From: Bacteroidota bacterium
GTDB taxonomy: Bacteria; Bacteroidota; Bacteroidia; Chitinophagales; Chitinophagaceae
Direction of reading: 5' to 3'
Assembly (NCBI GenBank): GCA_029560415.1
Contig: JAKQKY010000118.1
Coordinates: forward strand, 1-35,793
Length of the DNA: 35,793 nt
Shown here: piece by piece, positions 5,534 to 12,307 of the stretch
Layout of the letters: the number at the start of each line of letters is the position of its first letter
Position numbering within the stretch: the stretch's first letter is position 1
Notes under the pieces: generated by a model
The model's database searches: none
The model's input: the letters and a program-made list of their open reading frames with translations, nothing else
What the model was told of the DNA's origin: nothing
Program-made: the position numbers and the translations under genes

Positions 5534-6745
5534 TTATTTATTATCCATTAACAATGCTTCAAGCTTTTGTTTTGTTTCGGGAATTAATTTAAGGGACAAA
5601 GTTTTTTTGAAACTCTCAATAGCTTTTATTTTTTCCCCTTTCGCCAGGTACAGGTCTCCCATTCCATCATAACAATTAGCCGATTCGGGGTAGTTTGTAA
5701 TATTCAGTTTAAACAATGCTTCTGCTTTAATAAATTGTTTTTGTCTCAACATATAATAAGCAAGACCATTTACCAGGCTTTCAGCTGGTTTAACGGGATA
5801 GCCAATTTGCTCAGAAACATTATTATAGTGCGTTACCAATAAAGAGTCCATTTTAAAATTTGGGTTGTCTAATTCACTATTATATATTTTAAGTTTATAA
5901 TAGTCAAAAATAAAACGGAGGGCATCATACTCACCAATTAACCTGACGGAACTGTGGTCGTCATTTTCATAATATGCGTGCCTGAAACGCAATTGGTTTG
6001 TTTTGTTTTTGGAAATATCTTTAATGAAATCAAGATTGCTTCGGATAAGTTCAGTACCCTCGGTAGTATCTTTTTGAACTTTTAGAGTATCCATTCCTTT
6101 TTCCATCCGGTTTGCCAAAGCTATAAACAAGGTCTTCCCTTTGTAATTTCTATTTGATAAAACCGTCTTGGCTTCTTTTACAATCTGCTGATCGTTCCAC
6201 CATAAAGCACCATCCAGAGAAATATAGGCATTGAATAGATCCGGATGATTTATCAAGGTGTTCACAACAGTGAGGCCGCCAACCGAGTGTCCAATGAAGA
6301 TCTTAAAAGAAGCTGTTGGATAATTTGATTCGATGAATGGCATCAATTCATTTTCCACGTACAGCATGAATTTTTCTCCATTGCCGGTGATACCAGGCAT
6401 TTCCTTATCTGTACCAAATGTAAGATCCTTCATGCGGGCTGGATGCAAGATCCCAACTACGATCATAGGCGGACAAAGCCCTGCGTTGCTCATGAATTCG
6501 GTCATACTAACCATGTCATTAAAATTTGCATCCCCGTCTAATAAATATATTACCGGGTAACGCCCCTTCCCGGTATTTCCGGTACCTCCATTGCTGGTTG
6601 GAATATGGATCCAGGCTGTACGCTGTTCACCTAATATTTTTGATGCTAAACTCTTTTCAAATCCGGTTATAAACGGATTGTTTTCCTGTGCTTTGGCACA
6701 AAAGGAGAAAAGTAACATGGCGAAAAAATAAAAAAATGTTTTCAT
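5534..6745 (-). CDS. Secreted alpha/beta-hydrolase esterase with C-terminal TPR repeats
   Basis: The start is placed at the ATG at 6745 because it begins a clear signal peptide (MKTFFYFFAMLLFSFCAKAQ); an upstream in-frame ATG at 6826 would add 27 polar residues in front of it. The mature protein has a putative-esterase (Esterase D/Fes-like) domain: YPVIYLLDGD near 63-72, nucleophile elbow GHSVGG (152-157, S154), and a histidine in YENDDHSSVR. The C-terminal ~80 residues form about two TPR units (LAYYMLRQKQFIKAEALF and DGMGDLYLAKGEKIKAIESF). Such enzymes hydrolyse esters in the periplasm, for example siderophore or acyl esters; the substrate here is unknown. Length after processing is about 383 residues. 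Confidence 0.85.
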   Translation of the reverse strand: MKTFFYFFAMLLFSFCAKAQENNPFITGFEKSLASKILGEQRTAWIHIPTSNGGTGNTGKGRYPVIYLLDGDANFNDMVSMTEFMSNAGLCPPMIVVGILHPARMKDLTFGTDKEMPGITGNGEKFMLYVENELMPFIESNYPTASFKIFIGHSVGGLTVVNTLINHPDLFNAYISLDGALWWNDQQIVKEAKTVLSNRNYKGKTLFIALANRMEKGMDTLKVQKDTTEGTELIRSNLDFIKDISKNKTNQLRFRHAYYENDDHSSVRLIGEYDALRFIFDYYKLKIYNSELDNPNFKMDSLLVTHYNNVSEQIGYPVKPAESLVNGLAYYMLRQKQFIKAEALFKLNITNYPESANCYDGMGDLYLAKGEKIKAIESFKKTLSLKLIPETKQKLEALLMDNK

Positions 6746-6888
6746 AGCGTATTTGAAGAAAGATTTCGCATGTTGCCTGGCGGCTTGGATCGGCACAGCT
6801 GCATTAATGTTTGATCTTCTTTTCATATGCCTGGTTTTTATTTTTAAAATGGTAGTTTCTTTTTACTTATGAGGTCTATTAACAGCGA

Positions 6889-7071: not shown

Positions 7072-7102
7072 GATGCGTTTATTTAATTTATTTAATGATC
7101 AG

Positions 7103-7110
7103 CAAAATTA
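7103..7110 (-). promoter_or_regulatory. Promoter -7 box of the small peptide gene
   Basis: TAATTTTG on the minus strand matches TAnnTTTG exactly and lies about 32 bases before the ATG at 7071. A -33 element is not clear. Confidence 0.45.
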
Positions 7111-7191
7111 TTTATTGCATGATACAGCCGATAGGACAATCAGATAGTTGAATTGGATTCTGCTGAAGTTTTAGAAATTGCTCACATGTTG

Positions 7192-7911
7192 TTATTTGCC
7201 GGATATGATTTCAGTAGGCCTGAATCCTTTTACAACAAGGTACATACCCAATGAAAATTCCCATATAGCAATAGGAATGGCAAATAATCCTGTTGATGGC
7301 TCACGCTGACCGACATATCCGAATAAAACAGCGAGATCACCAGCTATTAACAATGCTGCACCTGCAAACCCTATAATGGGTAGTATCCGGGGCACCAGAC
7401 GAGACCGGTAAAGCAGGTATCCAAGTAGGATGCCGTTGATTGCGGGTATGAAACTTTGTCCTACCAGGAATATCCGGTCATACATGGCCACCAATGCCTG
7501 GCCAGTGACTATTGCATTAGATCCGGCTCCTGCCTGGTGCAAGGTTGCCGCAGATAAAAGAAATGCAACTCCAACAAAAATGGTACCCGCTTCCAGTATC
7601 CTGGTACCCACAAACCCAAGTGCAACGGCTTCCTGTTGTTTTTTAAGAACCGGGTATAAAGCAACGCCAGTACCAATGCAGGCAAGGGCCACGATGATCT
7701 CGAGGATCACCCCTGTGAAGAGCGACGTATCTGTGCCATTACTTAGCATGTAGTTAGTATCATGAACCGGAGCATACAATGCCAGGGTAGGGATCGAAAC
7801 AAAACTGAGCAGGTAAAAAAATCCAGCTGCCAGGGATGATTTGCGCATAGCACTCATTGAGATGCTTGCAATCTTATCCGCGGAGATTGCCGGTTGGCTA
7901 ATAGTTTGCAT
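7192..7911 (-). CDS. DUF4386 family membrane protein
   Basis: A 239-residue integral membrane protein with about six hydrophobic segments (near 28-46, 64-86, 105-125, 150-168, 176-198 and 208-228). The arrangement and motifs match DUF4386, an uncharacterised family common in Bacteroidota and Bacillota: AAGFFYLLSFVSIPTLALY, an Asn/Asp-containing loop, then GQALVAMYDRIFLVGQSFIPAINGILLGYLLYRSRLVPR split over the fourth and fifth helices. Function is unknown. It lies 72 bases downstream of the outer-membrane barrel gene on the same strand, so it may be co-transcribed with it under the LytTR-type control described at 8767. Confidence 0.8.
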   Translation of the reverse strand: MQTISQPAISADKIASISMSAMRKSSLAAGFFYLLSFVSIPTLALYAPVHDTNYMLSNGTDTSLFTGVILEIIVALACIGTGVALYPVLKKQQEAVALGFVGTRILEAGTIFVGVAFLLSAATLHQAGAGSNAIVTGQALVAMYDRIFLVGQSFIPAINGILLGYLLYRSRLVPRILPIIGFAGAALLIAGDLAVLFGYVGQREPSTGLFAIPIAIWEFSLGMYLVVKGFRPTEIISGK

Positions 7912-7983: not shown

Positions 7984-8679
7984 TTACTTTCTTCCAAGTG
8001 GATTTCTTTTCCATGGTTTTGAAAAATGTGCACTGATCATCAGGCCCCTGTTATAAATTTCCTTGTCATACGATAGATTCGTTAATCCATGCACATAACG
8101 GATGTCCAATGCGATACGTTTTTCTTTGAAGGGGAACTCAAATCCTCCACCAACCTGGATGCCAGCTTCCCATCTTCTAAAACCTTCAGCATTATTGGCA
8201 AATGAAAGTTTGCTCGATAGATCATTGATTTCCCTTTTGCCACTAAGATTGTAGGCAATGGAAGGACCAGCATTGAAGTAAAATTTGCCGGCATGAAAAC
8301 GAGCCAGTACCGGTAATTCCAGCGTATTAAAATGAAGAGAAGATTCGGTGGTTGTTAATGGATTGTTGGCTTTCAATTTGCCACCTTTGCGCACAAAGTA
8401 AAATTCTGATACAAGGGAAAATGATGGAGTAATACCTGCCTGGAAAGATGCACCGGCTTGTATCCCTTTTGAAGATTTTTTGAAATCCGACAAGGCACTG
8501 TTGGATTCGCCGTAATAAATGTTTGTGCTGGTTACATTCACTATAAGGTCGAAATAAGTTTTGGTCGTCTTTTTTTCCTTTTTGACGGGCACGTTTGCGT
8601 TTACATTGGATTGACCAATGCAGGCAGATGATAGGAAGATCATGGCCAATAGGATGGTAGTTTGTACTGTTTGTTTCAT
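7984..8679 (-). CDS. Outer-membrane beta-barrel protein (PorT-like family)
   Basis: The start is placed at the ATG at 8679, which begins a signal peptide (MKQTVQTTILLAMIFLSSA-C-IGQS); the in-frame ATG at 8739 lies upstream of a perfect promoter. The mature part alternates polar and hydrophobic residues as in small outer-membrane barrels: GIQAGASFQAGITPSFSLVS, ELPVLARFHAGKFYFNAGPS (typical of the family), WEAGIQVGGGFEFPF and ALDIRYVHGLTNL. It ends in basic residues rather than an aromatic, so the barrel assignment rests on these strands. A consensus promoter and a paired 12-bp direct repeat lie upstream, between this gene and the LytTR regulator, which suggests it is a target of that system. 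Confidence 0.8.
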   Translation of the reverse strand: MKQTVQTTILLAMIFLSSACIGQSNVNANVPVKKEKKTTKTYFDLIVNVTSTNIYYGESNSALSDFKKSSKGIQAGASFQAGITPSFSLVSEFYFVRKGGKLKANNPLTTTESSLHFNTLELPVLARFHAGKFYFNAGPSIAYNLSGKREINDLSSKLSFANNAEGFRRWEAGIQVGGGFEFPFKEKRIALDIRYVHGLTNLSYDKEIYNRGLMISAHFSKPWKRNPLGRK

Positions 8680-8708: not shown

Positions 8709-8739
8709 CAAAAGTATATAACTGAGGGTGGGCCTGCAA
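8709..8739 (-). promoter_or_regulatory. Promoter of the outer-membrane barrel gene
   Basis: On the minus strand TTG (8737-8739), 20 bases and TACTTTTG (8709-8716) match the Bacteroidota pattern TTTG-N19-21-TAnnTTTG. It gives a leader of about 20-25 bases to the ATG at 8679 and shows that the longer 8739 start is not used. Confidence 0.75.
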
Positions 8740-8766
8740 TTCAGCTATGCGAAGTGGGTGGGATTG

Positions 8767-8799
8767 TCTGCCAAATGAGAATTTTGATCTGCCAAATGA
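8767..8799 (-). promoter_or_regulatory. Probable LytTR operator A: two 12-bp direct repeats, 21-bp period
   Basis: On the minus strand the 12-mer TCATTTGGCAGA occurs twice without mismatch (8788-8799 and 8767-8778), 9 bases apart, so start-to-start is 21 bp, two helical turns. LytTR regulators typically bind two direct repeats spaced by about two turns. The site ends 27 bases upstream of the -33 box of the barrel gene, an activator position, and begins 8 bases past the regulator's stop codon. The same motif pair is found upstream of the kinase gene. Confidence 0.72.
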
Positions 8800-8806
8800 A
8801 TGCTGA

Positions 8807-9502
8807 TTATGCCTTGTTGTTAATGATCTGCAGGAAAGCTTCTTTGTAAGTTTCTGAAACGGGGATCAATTGATCGCCGATCTTTATCCTGCTGCGTTCG
8901 ATGGAATCAATCTTTTGAATGGCCACCATGTACGATTTATGTACCCGGCATACAAGGTGAGCCGGGAGCATTTGTTCCAGTTCTGTAAAGCCCTGCAAGG
9001 TCATTATCTTTTTAGTGGTCGTATGAATACGCAGGTAATCTCTCATGCCTTCGATGTATAGGATATCCTGAATCATGATTTTTTCGAGTCTATTTTCTGT
9101 TTTCACGAAAATATAATCCACGGGTTTATCAACAGCACGTTGACTCAGGTTTTCCTGTGCCTTATTCACTGCCTGTAAAAAGCGATTGAAGGTAAAAGGT
9201 TTTAACAGGTAGTCTGTGATCCTAAGTTCATAACCTTTTAAGGCATATTCCTGGTAGGCGGTTGTAATGATCACCTGGCTGTTGATATTGGTTGTTTCCA
9301 ATAATTCTATACCCGATAATTCATCCATGTTAATGTCGAGGAATAGCAGGTCAACTTTATGATTGTTGAGATAAGCCAGGCCTGTTAGTGCATTGTCGAA
9401 TGTACCGCTCAATTGAAGGAAGGGAACTTTGTTTACAAAGTCCTTTGTTTTTTCTAAGGCCAGTGGCTCATCTTCAATGATGATGCAGGTAAGTTTATCC
9501 AT
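8807..9502 (-). CDS. LytTR-family response regulator
   Basis: Cytosolic DNA-binding regulator of 231 residues. The receiver domain (1-120) has the acidic pair E10-D11 (IIIEDEPLA), phospho-acceptor D56 (LLFLDINM), T81 (IITTAY) and K101 (YLLKPF). The C-terminal LytTR domain (about 135-231) shows the typical RLEKIMIQDILYIEGMRDYL and the late VCRVHKSYMVAIQKIDSIER. It overlaps the end of the sensor kinase gene by 8 bases and is co-transcribed with it. The likely binding sites are the paired repeats at 8767-8799 and 10617-10649, which would make the operon autoregulated with the adjacent outer-membrane barrel gene as a target. Confidence 0.95.
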   Translation of the reverse strand: MDKLTCIIIEDEPLALEKTKDFVNKVPFLQLSGTFDNALTGLAYLNNHKVDLLFLDINMDELSGIELLETTNINSQVIITTAYQEYALKGYELRITDYLLKPFTFNRFLQAVNKAQENLSQRAVDKPVDYIFVKTENRLEKIMIQDILYIEGMRDYLRIHTTTKKIMTLQGFTELEQMLPAHLVCRVHKSYMVAIQKIDSIERSRIKIGDQLIPVSETYKEAFLQIINNKA

Positions 9503-10562
9503 GGGGAATCGTTAATTGTATGCTGTATAGATCGGCTGTTCTGTTAACTTCCAGCCTGTGTTTGCCGGCATAGATCAGGTTTAGCCGTTTTTCGATAAGT
9601 TCATTGCCCAACCCGCCAACCGTTTGATGAACTTTTAGTTTTGAATCAAATTTATTTTCACATATCAATTCCACCGTGTCATCCTTGATGAAGATATGAA
9701 CAGAAATAGCATGTTCAATCTTCTTATTATTGGCATGCTTGAAGGCATTTTCAATAAAAGGAATAAACACCATGGGGGCAATGGTTTTGTTCCCGATATT
9801 TCCATTTATGGTAAGATGCACATAATTTTCGTTAGCCGTTCGTATTTTTTGCAGGGCAATGTACTTCTCAATGTATTCAATTTCTTTAGACAGAGAGATA
9901 TTATCCGCCTTTGTTTCATACAAGATAAACCGCATGATATCTGATAGTTTATTCAAATAATCTGATGCAGCTACTACATCTTTTAGAATCAGGGCATCGA
10001 TATTGTTGATTGTATTGAATAACAGGTGCGGATCCAGCTGGAGTTTCACCAGTGCCATTTCCATTTCATGATTTTTCTCTTTCAGGCTCTCCTTCAGTTT
10101 GATTTCATTGAACCAGGTGATGAATCCATTGATCACTAATGCTACAATACCACAAATGACGCCGATAAATGTCATCACTATGATGACCGTTACAGCGGTT
10201 GAACGACCGTTCCTACCTCCTTTGTCCATATCAGCTACGCTACCCGATTCAATAAAATAACGGAGCAGAATATACGCCAATATGGCTGCAACCATGGAGA
10301 TCAGTATTCCAACAGCCAGGGAAAGAACATATCTTTTTTGTTGTAAATATTTGGGAAACACGACGAAATAGTACATAAAATAGGAGATGACTGAAGGTAT
10401 AAACGCAAAGAGGAACAAAGTTTTCACTGCGTTCATGATCCGGGCATCCTGGTTTGTTGCATGTGTAATTGTTCTGTAATAAACGGCAAGAATAATGGCT
10501 GCTAATATCACGTAGCACAGCCAAAATCCTATATGTAACAAAACCACAAAAGATTTCTTCAT
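9495..10562 (-). CDS. LytS/YehU-type membrane sensor histidine kinase
   Basis: A 355-residue HPK7-type kinase. The N-terminal half has four hydrophobic segments (about 8-28, 46-68, 78-101, 123-148) and a loop rich in Gly/Asp between the last two. It then runs through a short coiled coil into the His_kinase domain: LVKLQLDPHLLFNTINNIDAL, split here as LQLDPHLLFN with H179 and then TINNIDAL, followed by the N box PFIENAFKHANN (N272) and G box VGGLGNELIEKRL (315-327). The usual form is 'aQinPHFLFN'; here LDPHLLFN is a mild variant. The signal sensed is unknown, as no extracellular domain is present. A direct-repeat pair like that at 8767 lies 55-87 bases upstream. Confidence 0.94.
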   Translation of the reverse strand: MKKSFVVLLHIGFWLCYVILAAIILAVYYRTITHATNQDARIMNAVKTLFLFAFIPSVISYFMYYFVVFPKYLQQKRYVLSLAVGILISMVAAILAYILLRYFIESGSVADMDKGGRNGRSTAVTVIIVMTFIGVICGIVALVINGFITWFNEIKLKESLKEKNHEMEMALVKLQLDPHLLFNTINNIDALILKDVVAASDYLNKLSDIMRFILYETKADNISLSKEIEYIEKYIALQKIRTANENYVHLTINGNIGNKTIAPMVFIPFIENAFKHANNKKIEHAISVHIFIKDDTVELICENKFDSKLKVHQTVGGLGNELIEKRLNLIYAGKHRLEVNRTADLYSIQLTIPHG

Positions 10563-10616
10563 GATTTAAAATTACCAACTAAAAGTAGATAGTTGTGAAG
10601 TTCATTCAGCAAGCAT

Positions 10617-10649
10617 TCTGCAAACTGGCCTTATTGGTCTGCCAATTAG
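10617..10649 (-). promoter_or_regulatory. Probable LytTR operator B: two 12-bp direct repeats, 21-bp period
   Basis: On the minus strand CTAATTGGCAGA (10638-10649) and CCAGTTTGCAGA (10617-10628) repeat with the same 21-bp period and 9-bp spacer as site A. All four half-sites fit YYANTTKGCAGA. A weak promoter (TTG at 10610-10612, 22 bases, TACTTTTA at 10580-10587) lies just downstream. The rest of the 199-bp gap before the SDR gene shows nothing recognisable. Confidence 0.66.
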
Positions 10650-11443: not shown

Positions 11444-12307
11444 TTATGTAAAATGTTGCCTGAAAGCTTCAGGAGATTGGCCTATGTGTTTTTTAAAGAA
11501 CCGGATAAAGTACGAATAGTCTTCATAGCCAAGCTGGTCTGCTATTTCTTTCACCTGGTTGTTGGTGGCCAGCAGGTATCGTTTAGCCTCCAGTATGATT
11601 TGTTCGTTGATCAGGTCGGATGCTGTTTTTCCAATGGATGATTTTGTGATCTCATTTAACTGGTAAGGGGAGAGGTTCATCAAAATGCAGTATTGAGAAA
11701 CTTGTTTGTGAGTGGCGATGTGTTTTTCAACCAACGCCTGGAATTCTTCATAGCGTTCCTGCGTGTAGGGGTTAGCGGTAGTTTTTACCGTTTTAGGATT
11801 GGGGCTTTCCCGCACAAATTCAATAAAGAAAATATCGAGACTTGCCCTGATGATATCCTGGTAACCATCTTCACGATAGTTATATTCCTGTAACATCGTC
11901 GTTAATATATTCATCAATTTGTTGAACCGGGTTACCTGAAGCTTACAATAGTTTTTATTGCTTGCCTTTCTTAGCCGCTGACCTGCCAAATGTTCCCTTG
12001 GATGATAAAAGCCCGTGTTGAATTCTACCAGGAAACCAGTGCTCCCGGATTTCAATTCAAGTTGATGTACCTGGCCGGGGCGTAAAAAGAAAATGGTATG
12101 ATCCGTTACTTTATAAGAAGTGAAGTCAATGTCATGATGTCCATTTCCTTTTTGAATGGCCAATATAAAATAGAAATCGTGCCGGTGAAGGTCATGGACC
12201 AGGTCCTTGCCTGCAAGAATATCTTCCACACTCCGTATTTTAAATCTTTCGGAAGAAGGCAGTTCATGATGACTTGTGTTGATCTGCCTGACTGGAATTT
12301 TCTTCAT
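11444..12307 (-). CDS. AraC-family transcriptional regulator
   Basis: A 287-residue regulator with an N-terminal cupin-like sensing domain (about 25-160: HDLHRHDFYFILAIQKGNGHH, split over the first strands, and FFLRPGQVHQL) and a C-terminal AraC DNA-binding domain of about 95 residues. That domain has two helix-turn-helix units: MNLSPYQLNEITKSSIGKTA and VKEIADQLGYEDYSYFIRFF, ending KKHIGQSPEAFRQHF, the family signature. It acts as a ligand-responsive activator or repressor; the inducer is unknown. It lies immediately upstream of the atypical SDR gene in the same direction, so the SDR is its most likely target. A perfect -7 box lies 15-22 bases upstream of the ATG. Confidence 0.92.
   Translation of the reverse strand: MKKIPVRQINTSHHELPSSERFKIRSVEDILAGKDLVHDLHRHDFYFILAIQKGNGHHDIDFTSYKVTDHTIFFLRPGQVHQLELKSGSTGFLVEFNTGFYHPREHLAGQRLRKASNKNYCKLQVTRFNKLMNILTTMLQEYNYREDGYQDIIRASLDIFFIEFVRESPNPKTVKTTANPYTQERYEEFQALVEKHIATHKQVSQYCILMNLSPYQLNEITKSSIGKTASDLINEQIILEAKRYLLATNNQVKEIADQLGYEDYSYFIRFFKKHIGQSPEAFRQHFT

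Follow-up and report, generated by a model that had tools for sequence, protein, structure and literature searches.

The locus examined here raises the question of whether the short direct repeats that flank a LytS-like/LytTR gene pair are the operator of the regulator encoded between them and, if so, which genes that regulator would control and in which sense. The window, that is, the whole stretch of 35,793 nucleotides that was analysed, carries on its minus strand genes for a LytS-like histidine kinase (355 aa, 9495..10562, PF06580), a LytTR response regulator (231 aa, 8807..9502, PF00072 and PF04397), an outer-membrane beta-barrel protein (231 aa, 7984..8679, PF13568), which is the predicted direct target, and a DUF4386 membrane protein (7192..7911, PF14329), which is predicted to be reached by read-through from the barrel promoter. 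The kinase gene adjoins and overlaps that of the receiver-LytTR regulator, in the manner of a LytS/LytTR two-component system.

Direct reading of the sequence confirmed the two repeat pairs reported in the preliminary description, both of which lie on the minus strand at the coordinates given there, with an N9 spacer and a period of exactly 21 bp. Site A, behind the regulator gene, has TCATTTGGCAGA at 8788..8799 (distal half-site, kept in 8 same-genus loci) and again at 8767..8778 (middle half-site, N9 from the distal copy), while site B (10649-10617), a pair upstream of lytS, has CTAATTGGCAGA at 10638..10649 (distal) and, N9 from it, CCAGTTTGCAGA at 10617..10628 (proximal), both kept in same-genus loci; all four of these half-sites fit YYANTTKGCAGA, as had been stated. 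The description of site A as a pair proved incomplete: its two half-sites are real, but a 2-mismatch pair that includes the middle copy (8746-8778) reveals a third half-site 21 bp nearer the barrel gene, CCACTTCGCATA at 8746..8757 (proximal), which is in the same 21-bp register as the other two and is kept in relatives, all 53 aligned triples having GCATA at this position. Site A thus forms a triple array spanning 8799-8746, with 7 bases between it and the stop codon of the regulator gene (8807). The distance of 27 bp from the site A pair to the barrel promoter (8766-8740) was given correctly, and the third half-site falls within that gap. When up to three mismatches are allowed, the pair pattern matches three times in the window (two matches with 0 mismatches and one with 2), where shuffled sequences lead one to expect 0.02, and five times in the whole genome (4,485,272 bases in 515 contigs). 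Three of these five are the window's own; the fourth (C12:3698-3730, 2 mismatches) lies upstream of another LytS-LytTR operon and the fifth is at C165:1613-1645 (3 mismatches).

The regulator is widespread, and conservation beyond the genus was assessed in the best 80 of 157 regulator relatives, which are 69-88% identical to the window's regulator and come from Ferruginibacter, Mucilaginibacter, Spirosoma, Flavobacterium, Aquimarina, Saprospiraceae and others. As a search motif the strict 12-mer consensus was too narrow, its outer letters being unconserved, and a motif pair of this kind was present in just 1 of these 80 loci; it was replaced by the core TTKGCAKA-N13-TTKGCAKA, which occurs exactly in 34 of the 80. 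Across 892,564 bases (the 80 loci plus 13 kb of the window) there are 48 exact core pairs at a spacing of 21 and at most one at any other spacing between 12 and 40, and this period lies in the range of LytTR-type operators (about 20-24 bp). Lack of conservation of the motif pair upstream of orthologous lytS or barrel genes would have refuted the preliminary description, but sites proved to be conserved: 67 of the best 80 of 157 loci have a core-pair site, with at most one mismatch, ahead of lytS, behind lytR or in both places; the linkage to a LytTR-domain gene that is expected of such an operator is seen in these loci as it is in the window (PF04397 in 8807-9502).

Considered by side, and with the window included, 72 lytS-side and 79 lytR-side regions could be scored, 9 and 2 others being left out of the tallies owing to a contig end or an incomplete kinase. 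A pair with at most one mismatch stands within the 400 bases before lytS in 50 of the 72 and in the stretch behind lytR in 45 of the 79. Other spacings from 10 to 45 yield at most 3 of 72 before lytS and at most 1 of 79 after lytR, with the exception of 42, the double period (42 of 79), and 41 (6 of 79). Among the 70 loci testable on both sides, the site is on both in 27, before lytS alone in 21, after lytR alone in 14 and on neither in 8, seven of these eight having a 2-mismatch version. The eighth, L169, has no site even at three mismatches, and the same is true of L167. In total, 13 of the 80 loci have no site at up to one mismatch within the stretches covered, in some cases owing only to a contig end, and 22 of the 72 lytS-upstream stretches have none at this threshold. 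In six loci the barrel orthologue is separated from lytR by another gene; in two of these it has a site of its own (at most one mismatch), and in the other four it has none at that threshold.

Within the genus, the regulator is present at an identity of at least 84% in 8 of 93 genomes, the window's own included, and in the same eight genomes the barrel orthologue lies beside it; a barrel match of any kind at E 1e-20 is found in nine of the 93, the ninth (G074) being a 46% paralogue located elsewhere. The triple before the barrel gene and the pair before lytS are kept in 8 of 8 loci, with single substitutions in some half-sites and with differing spacers. Unlinked barrel paralogues (L111-L113) were considered as further targets and rejected, as in all three the 220 bases before the match hold no array, only weak pairs inside reading frames being found. 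A different promoter-like stretch, CCAATTCAACT ... GTCCTATCG ... AAATAATTTTG, precedes a 60-codon ORF in the window (7100-7165, minus strand), and the same stretch precedes a relative's unlinked barrel paralogue (L111, upstream of about 3130).

A search for exact core pairs across the genus returned 47, distributed over 31 of the 93 genomes, against 7 for a reversed-pattern control. Thirty genus loci, containing 32 exact pairs, were examined: 13 of these pairs are intergenic and 19 lie within ORFs, two of the latter being LytTR promoters inside over-long ORFs (L089, L090). Twelve of the 13 intergenic pairs stand at LytTR operons of the site-bearing regulator branches, and the remaining one is upstream of a GFO/IDH/MocA oxidoreductase gene (L100; L131 is the same place). 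The share of in-ORF matches, together with the 85 own-genome core-pair matches at up to two mismatches (control 19), most of which are without explanation, would be in keeping with chance repeats or coding-bias words devoid of function. We find this scarcely credible as an account of the arrays, given that a spacing of 21 alone is enriched (48 versus at most 1) and that place, orientation and promoter distance are conserved. Seven own-genome matches with one mismatch (L225-L228 and L230-L232) were checked as further sites and rejected, all of them lying inside ORFs. One of these, L226 (G000:C54), has a degenerate three-repeat match at 612-661, inside the terminal part of a GH31-type gene and 60 bp ahead of the next gene, with no LytTR gene known beside it; as both genes encode glycosidases, this match was left as a probable coding coincidence.

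The distribution of the sites follows that of the regulators. A tree was built of 60 LytTR regulators of the genus and order, each of which was scored for a site (up to one mismatch) in a stretch reaching from 3.3 kb upstream of the regulator gene to about 0.6 kb downstream of it; the site label changes 8 times on this tree compared with 17.6 times for shuffled labels, and 0 of 500 shuffles gave a value as low. Sites accompany 14 of 18 regulators in the window's branch and its sister, and 6 of 10 in a second branch, which is weakly supported (80/79), although five of its six site-bearing rows group together in a separate starred branch. Thirty-one of the other 32 regulators in the tree are without a site, and that of L136 lies inside an ORF, 2 kb away. 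As for the four site-less regulators of the first group, the contigs of L039 and L043 end short of where the site would be expected, L114 has a 2-mismatch pair and L115 has none. All 23 regulators of the three groups have R154 and K189, which are found in 5 and 18, respectively, of 31 others, five intermediate rows and L136 being left out of these counts. The profile of the regulator's LytTR domain matches the AgrA structure 3bs1 (E 0.0005) and aligns K189 with an Asn of AgrA. This Asn, N201, contacts DNA.

Each branch has its own type of operon. In the sister branch the gene order is ABC ATPase-permease-lytS-lytR, with the site before the ATPase gene (L041, L042, L044, L116), and the window's own genome has a copy of this operon on C272 (L042, array at 1332-1361). 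In the second branch lytS-lytR and a DUF5694 gene diverge from each other, and often there is an array for either direction (L046, L055, L117, L119), and here too the genome has a copy, on C12 (L055, 3649-3730). The genome, in which the regulator has five matches at E 1e-40 or better, itself included, carries three LytTR operons with the same core and the same spacing, and a paralogous regulator with the same half-site (C12, C272) might be the main or an additional binder in a cross-talking network; in most loci examined, however, the arrays flank this regulator's own genes, and we judge a role of this kind for a paralogue to be rather improbable.

AraC-type proteins also use direct repeats about 21 bp apart, and the window encodes an AraC-family protein (11444-12307) about 0.9 kb from the lytS-upstream array, from which it might be supposed that this or some other regulator binds the repeats. 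A relative of the AraC-family gene is present in the flanks examined of only 8 of the best 80 of 157 loci, however, and 60 of the 67 site-bearing loci are without one, while the sites follow three operon types that share only a LytTR pair. The AraC-family protein was accordingly rejected as the binder for want of conserved linkage, and binding by a regulator of another family appears very improbable.

A motif-free comparison of 38 diverse lytS-upstream regions, the window and site-bearing loci included, placed offset 21 as a clear outlier among offsets 12-44 (mean best 9-mer match 6.74 versus 5.6-6.1), which suggests that the 21-bp period is general among LytTR operons and that the half-site differs by clade. 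The lytS-upstream regions of L074, L073 and L066 have 21-bp repeats with other half-sites, e.g. CCATTTCGTC in L074.

The position of the arrays relative to the promoters bears on the sense of regulation. Promoter elements were assigned by eye against the -33/-7 promoter consensus of Bacteroidota. On the minus strand, the barrel gene has a predicted -33 element (TTG) at 8737..8739, 6 bases past the end of site A, and a predicted -7 element, TACTTTTG, at 8709..8716; for lytS the predicted -33 element (TTG) is at 10610..10612, 4 bases past the end of site B, and the predicted -7 element, TACTTTTA, at 10580..10587 is weaker, stands 22 bp from the TTG and has a weak consensus among 55 relatives. 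Both arrays hence end a few bases upstream of a predicted -33, the position expected of a LytTR-type operator. Promoters of the Bacteroidota type have been printed for Bacteroides in PMC6193735 (accessible part), which also describes regulators that activate their own genes through repeats 4-11 bp upstream of -35.

Triple arrays (up to three mismatches, with either G or T accepted at the G/T position of each half-site) are found after lytR in 53 of 79 regions and before lytS in 7 of 72, while other spacings from 15 to 30 gave none in any region. Among the 53 aligned triples, the G/T position reads G in all 53 middle half-sites and in 52 of the distal ones, and T in all 53 proximal ones. Counted from the start of the proximal half-site, AATT follows at 14 bases in 44 of the triples and a -7 pattern at 37 bases in 31, which are the offsets of the window's own -33 and -7 elements. 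Each half-site thus occupies a set position in a promoter layout that is itself fixed.

Triple operators have been described for the LytTR proteins RcoM1 and CoxC, the latter of which binds a triple direct repeat and acts as a repressor (PMC11347149, accessible part). The arrays of the window might likewise bind a LytTR regulator and serve as a repressor operator, and the -7 element of the barrel promoter, which is near consensus, has no obvious need of an activator. The CoxC repeats, however, overlap -35, whereas the arrays here end 4-6 bases upstream of the predicted -33, and most LytTR regulators bind upstream of -35 and activate, according to the accessible part of the same paper (PMC11347149). 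We therefore consider repression unlikely, and the operator of this LytTR clade probably acts in activation.

The genes behind the triple arrays are variable. Triples with up to four mismatches number 58; a barrel orthologue lies no more than 700 bases from lytR in 31 of these and is absent from that distance in the other 27. Linked sites are elsewhere followed by TonB-type receptors (L187, L171; partly matching proteins in L153, L179 and L182), a DUF2306 gene (L199, L206), a C1-type peptidase (L185), PF00144 proteins (L221; below the cut-off in L170) or a DoxX-like protein (L189), and in L211 a DUF4386 relative is directly behind a site; 8 of the 20 proteins behind linked sites that were scanned with Pfam had no match. 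An alignment of five Flavobacteriaceae genes behind lytR was dropped, as it mixed two unrelated families. It is conceivable, though we would rate it slightly below an even chance, that this Bacteroidota LytTR lineage constitutes a phylum-wide plug-in switch whose operator code is fixed at two half-sites before its own operon and three before the effector gene behind lytR; effectors (barrel, TonB-type receptor, DUF2306, peptidase, DUF4386) would be freely exchanged while the triple array and its distance from the promoter persist, and the number of half-sites would set the effector response against autoregulation. A PF00756 esterase gene, located downstream of the DUF4386 gene in the window (5534-6826), is found in the relative G066 upstream of lytS with an array of its own (L108/L146). 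The window's esterase gene was rejected as a target, having no site (best match 6 mismatches); of eight esterase relatives in the loci, two have a 1-mismatch and one a 2-mismatch site, and the esterase would thus be a target in some genomes at most.

Operons of the LRS type combine a LytTR regulator with a membrane inhibitor instead of a histidine kinase and receiver domain; the window's regulator, with its receiver domain and kinase partner, stands apart from that type. Nevertheless, the LRS operons HdrRM and BrsRM of Streptococcus mutans resemble it in having a 12-bp spacer, a period of 21, repeats 4-11 bases upstream of -35 and positive autoregulation with linked targets, while they differ in their half-site (such as ACCACTTAT), in the membrane-inhibitor partner and in having pairs rather than triples, as far as the accessible part of PMC6193735 goes. 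The LRS-like operons of Bacteroides, from the same phylum, share the LytTR-domain regulator and direct repeats 11 bp upstream of a Bacteroidota-type promoter, but have half-sites TCCGGTATTCA / ACCGGAAATCA in 11-bp repeats with an 11-bp spacer and a period of 22, and a transmembrane LytTR protein with an NfeD/DUF2154 partner (PMC6193735, same part). RcoM1 and CoxC are alike in the three LytTR-bound direct repeats about two helical turns apart and unlike in their half-sites (TTCNNGCA / TTNNNGCN), in their origin from Proteobacteria and in being one-component CO sensors (PMC11347149, accessible part). In the gamma-proteobacterial YpdB and BtsR systems a LytS-type kinase and a LytTR regulator act through two direct repeats (GGCATTTCAT for YpdB) on a membrane protein gene, but the half-site differs, there are two repeats, and the accessible parts of PMC4847170 and PMC5552118 report no triple array. 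AgrA of Staphylococcus aureus likewise has a LytTR domain (3bs1) and two direct repeats upstream of promoters, with a different half-site, phylum and, in quorum sensing, context (PMC4227749, accessible part).

The layout is, in consequence, that already known for LytTR operators: according to the accessible part of PMC4847170, LytTR proteins bind paired repeats, each of 9-11 nt and 11-13 nt apart, for which there is no common consensus, and this agrees with the statement that LytTR regulators bind direct repeats about two turns apart. The suggestion that the site is undescribed for the family would hold for the half-site, its clade and the double/triple rule, none of which was found in the literature searched (seen in part and omitting most subscription-journal papers), but not for this general layout.

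From these comparisons of sequence we regard the repeats, with considerable confidence, as the likely operator of the LytTR regulator encoded between the arrays, through which it would activate its own operon and the barrel gene together with DUF4386. The control of its own operon and of the barrel gene, as originally put forward, is sustained in that the sites are conserved with the regulator across the Bacteroidota and follow its tree, while site A had to be redefined as a triple and the 12-mer consensus had been overfitted. The regulator, probably phosphorylated by the adjacent kinase, would bind with one subunit per half-site along one face of the DNA (21 bp being two helical turns), perhaps cooperatively, and, positioned just upstream of -33 at both promoters, would recruit RNA polymerase. 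Two subunits at its own lytS-lytR operon would bring about activation and positive feedback, and three on the longer array would activate the barrel gene, with DUF4386 read through behind it.

LytTR regulators are numerous in these bacteria, and the definition of a half-site, a spacing and a promoter distance makes linked targets predictable from sequence. The occurrence of arrays with two and with three half-sites offers a natural test of how the number of half-sites tunes a promoter, and the exchange of effectors, with the array itself constant, suggests how envelope genes may come under the control of a signalling system.
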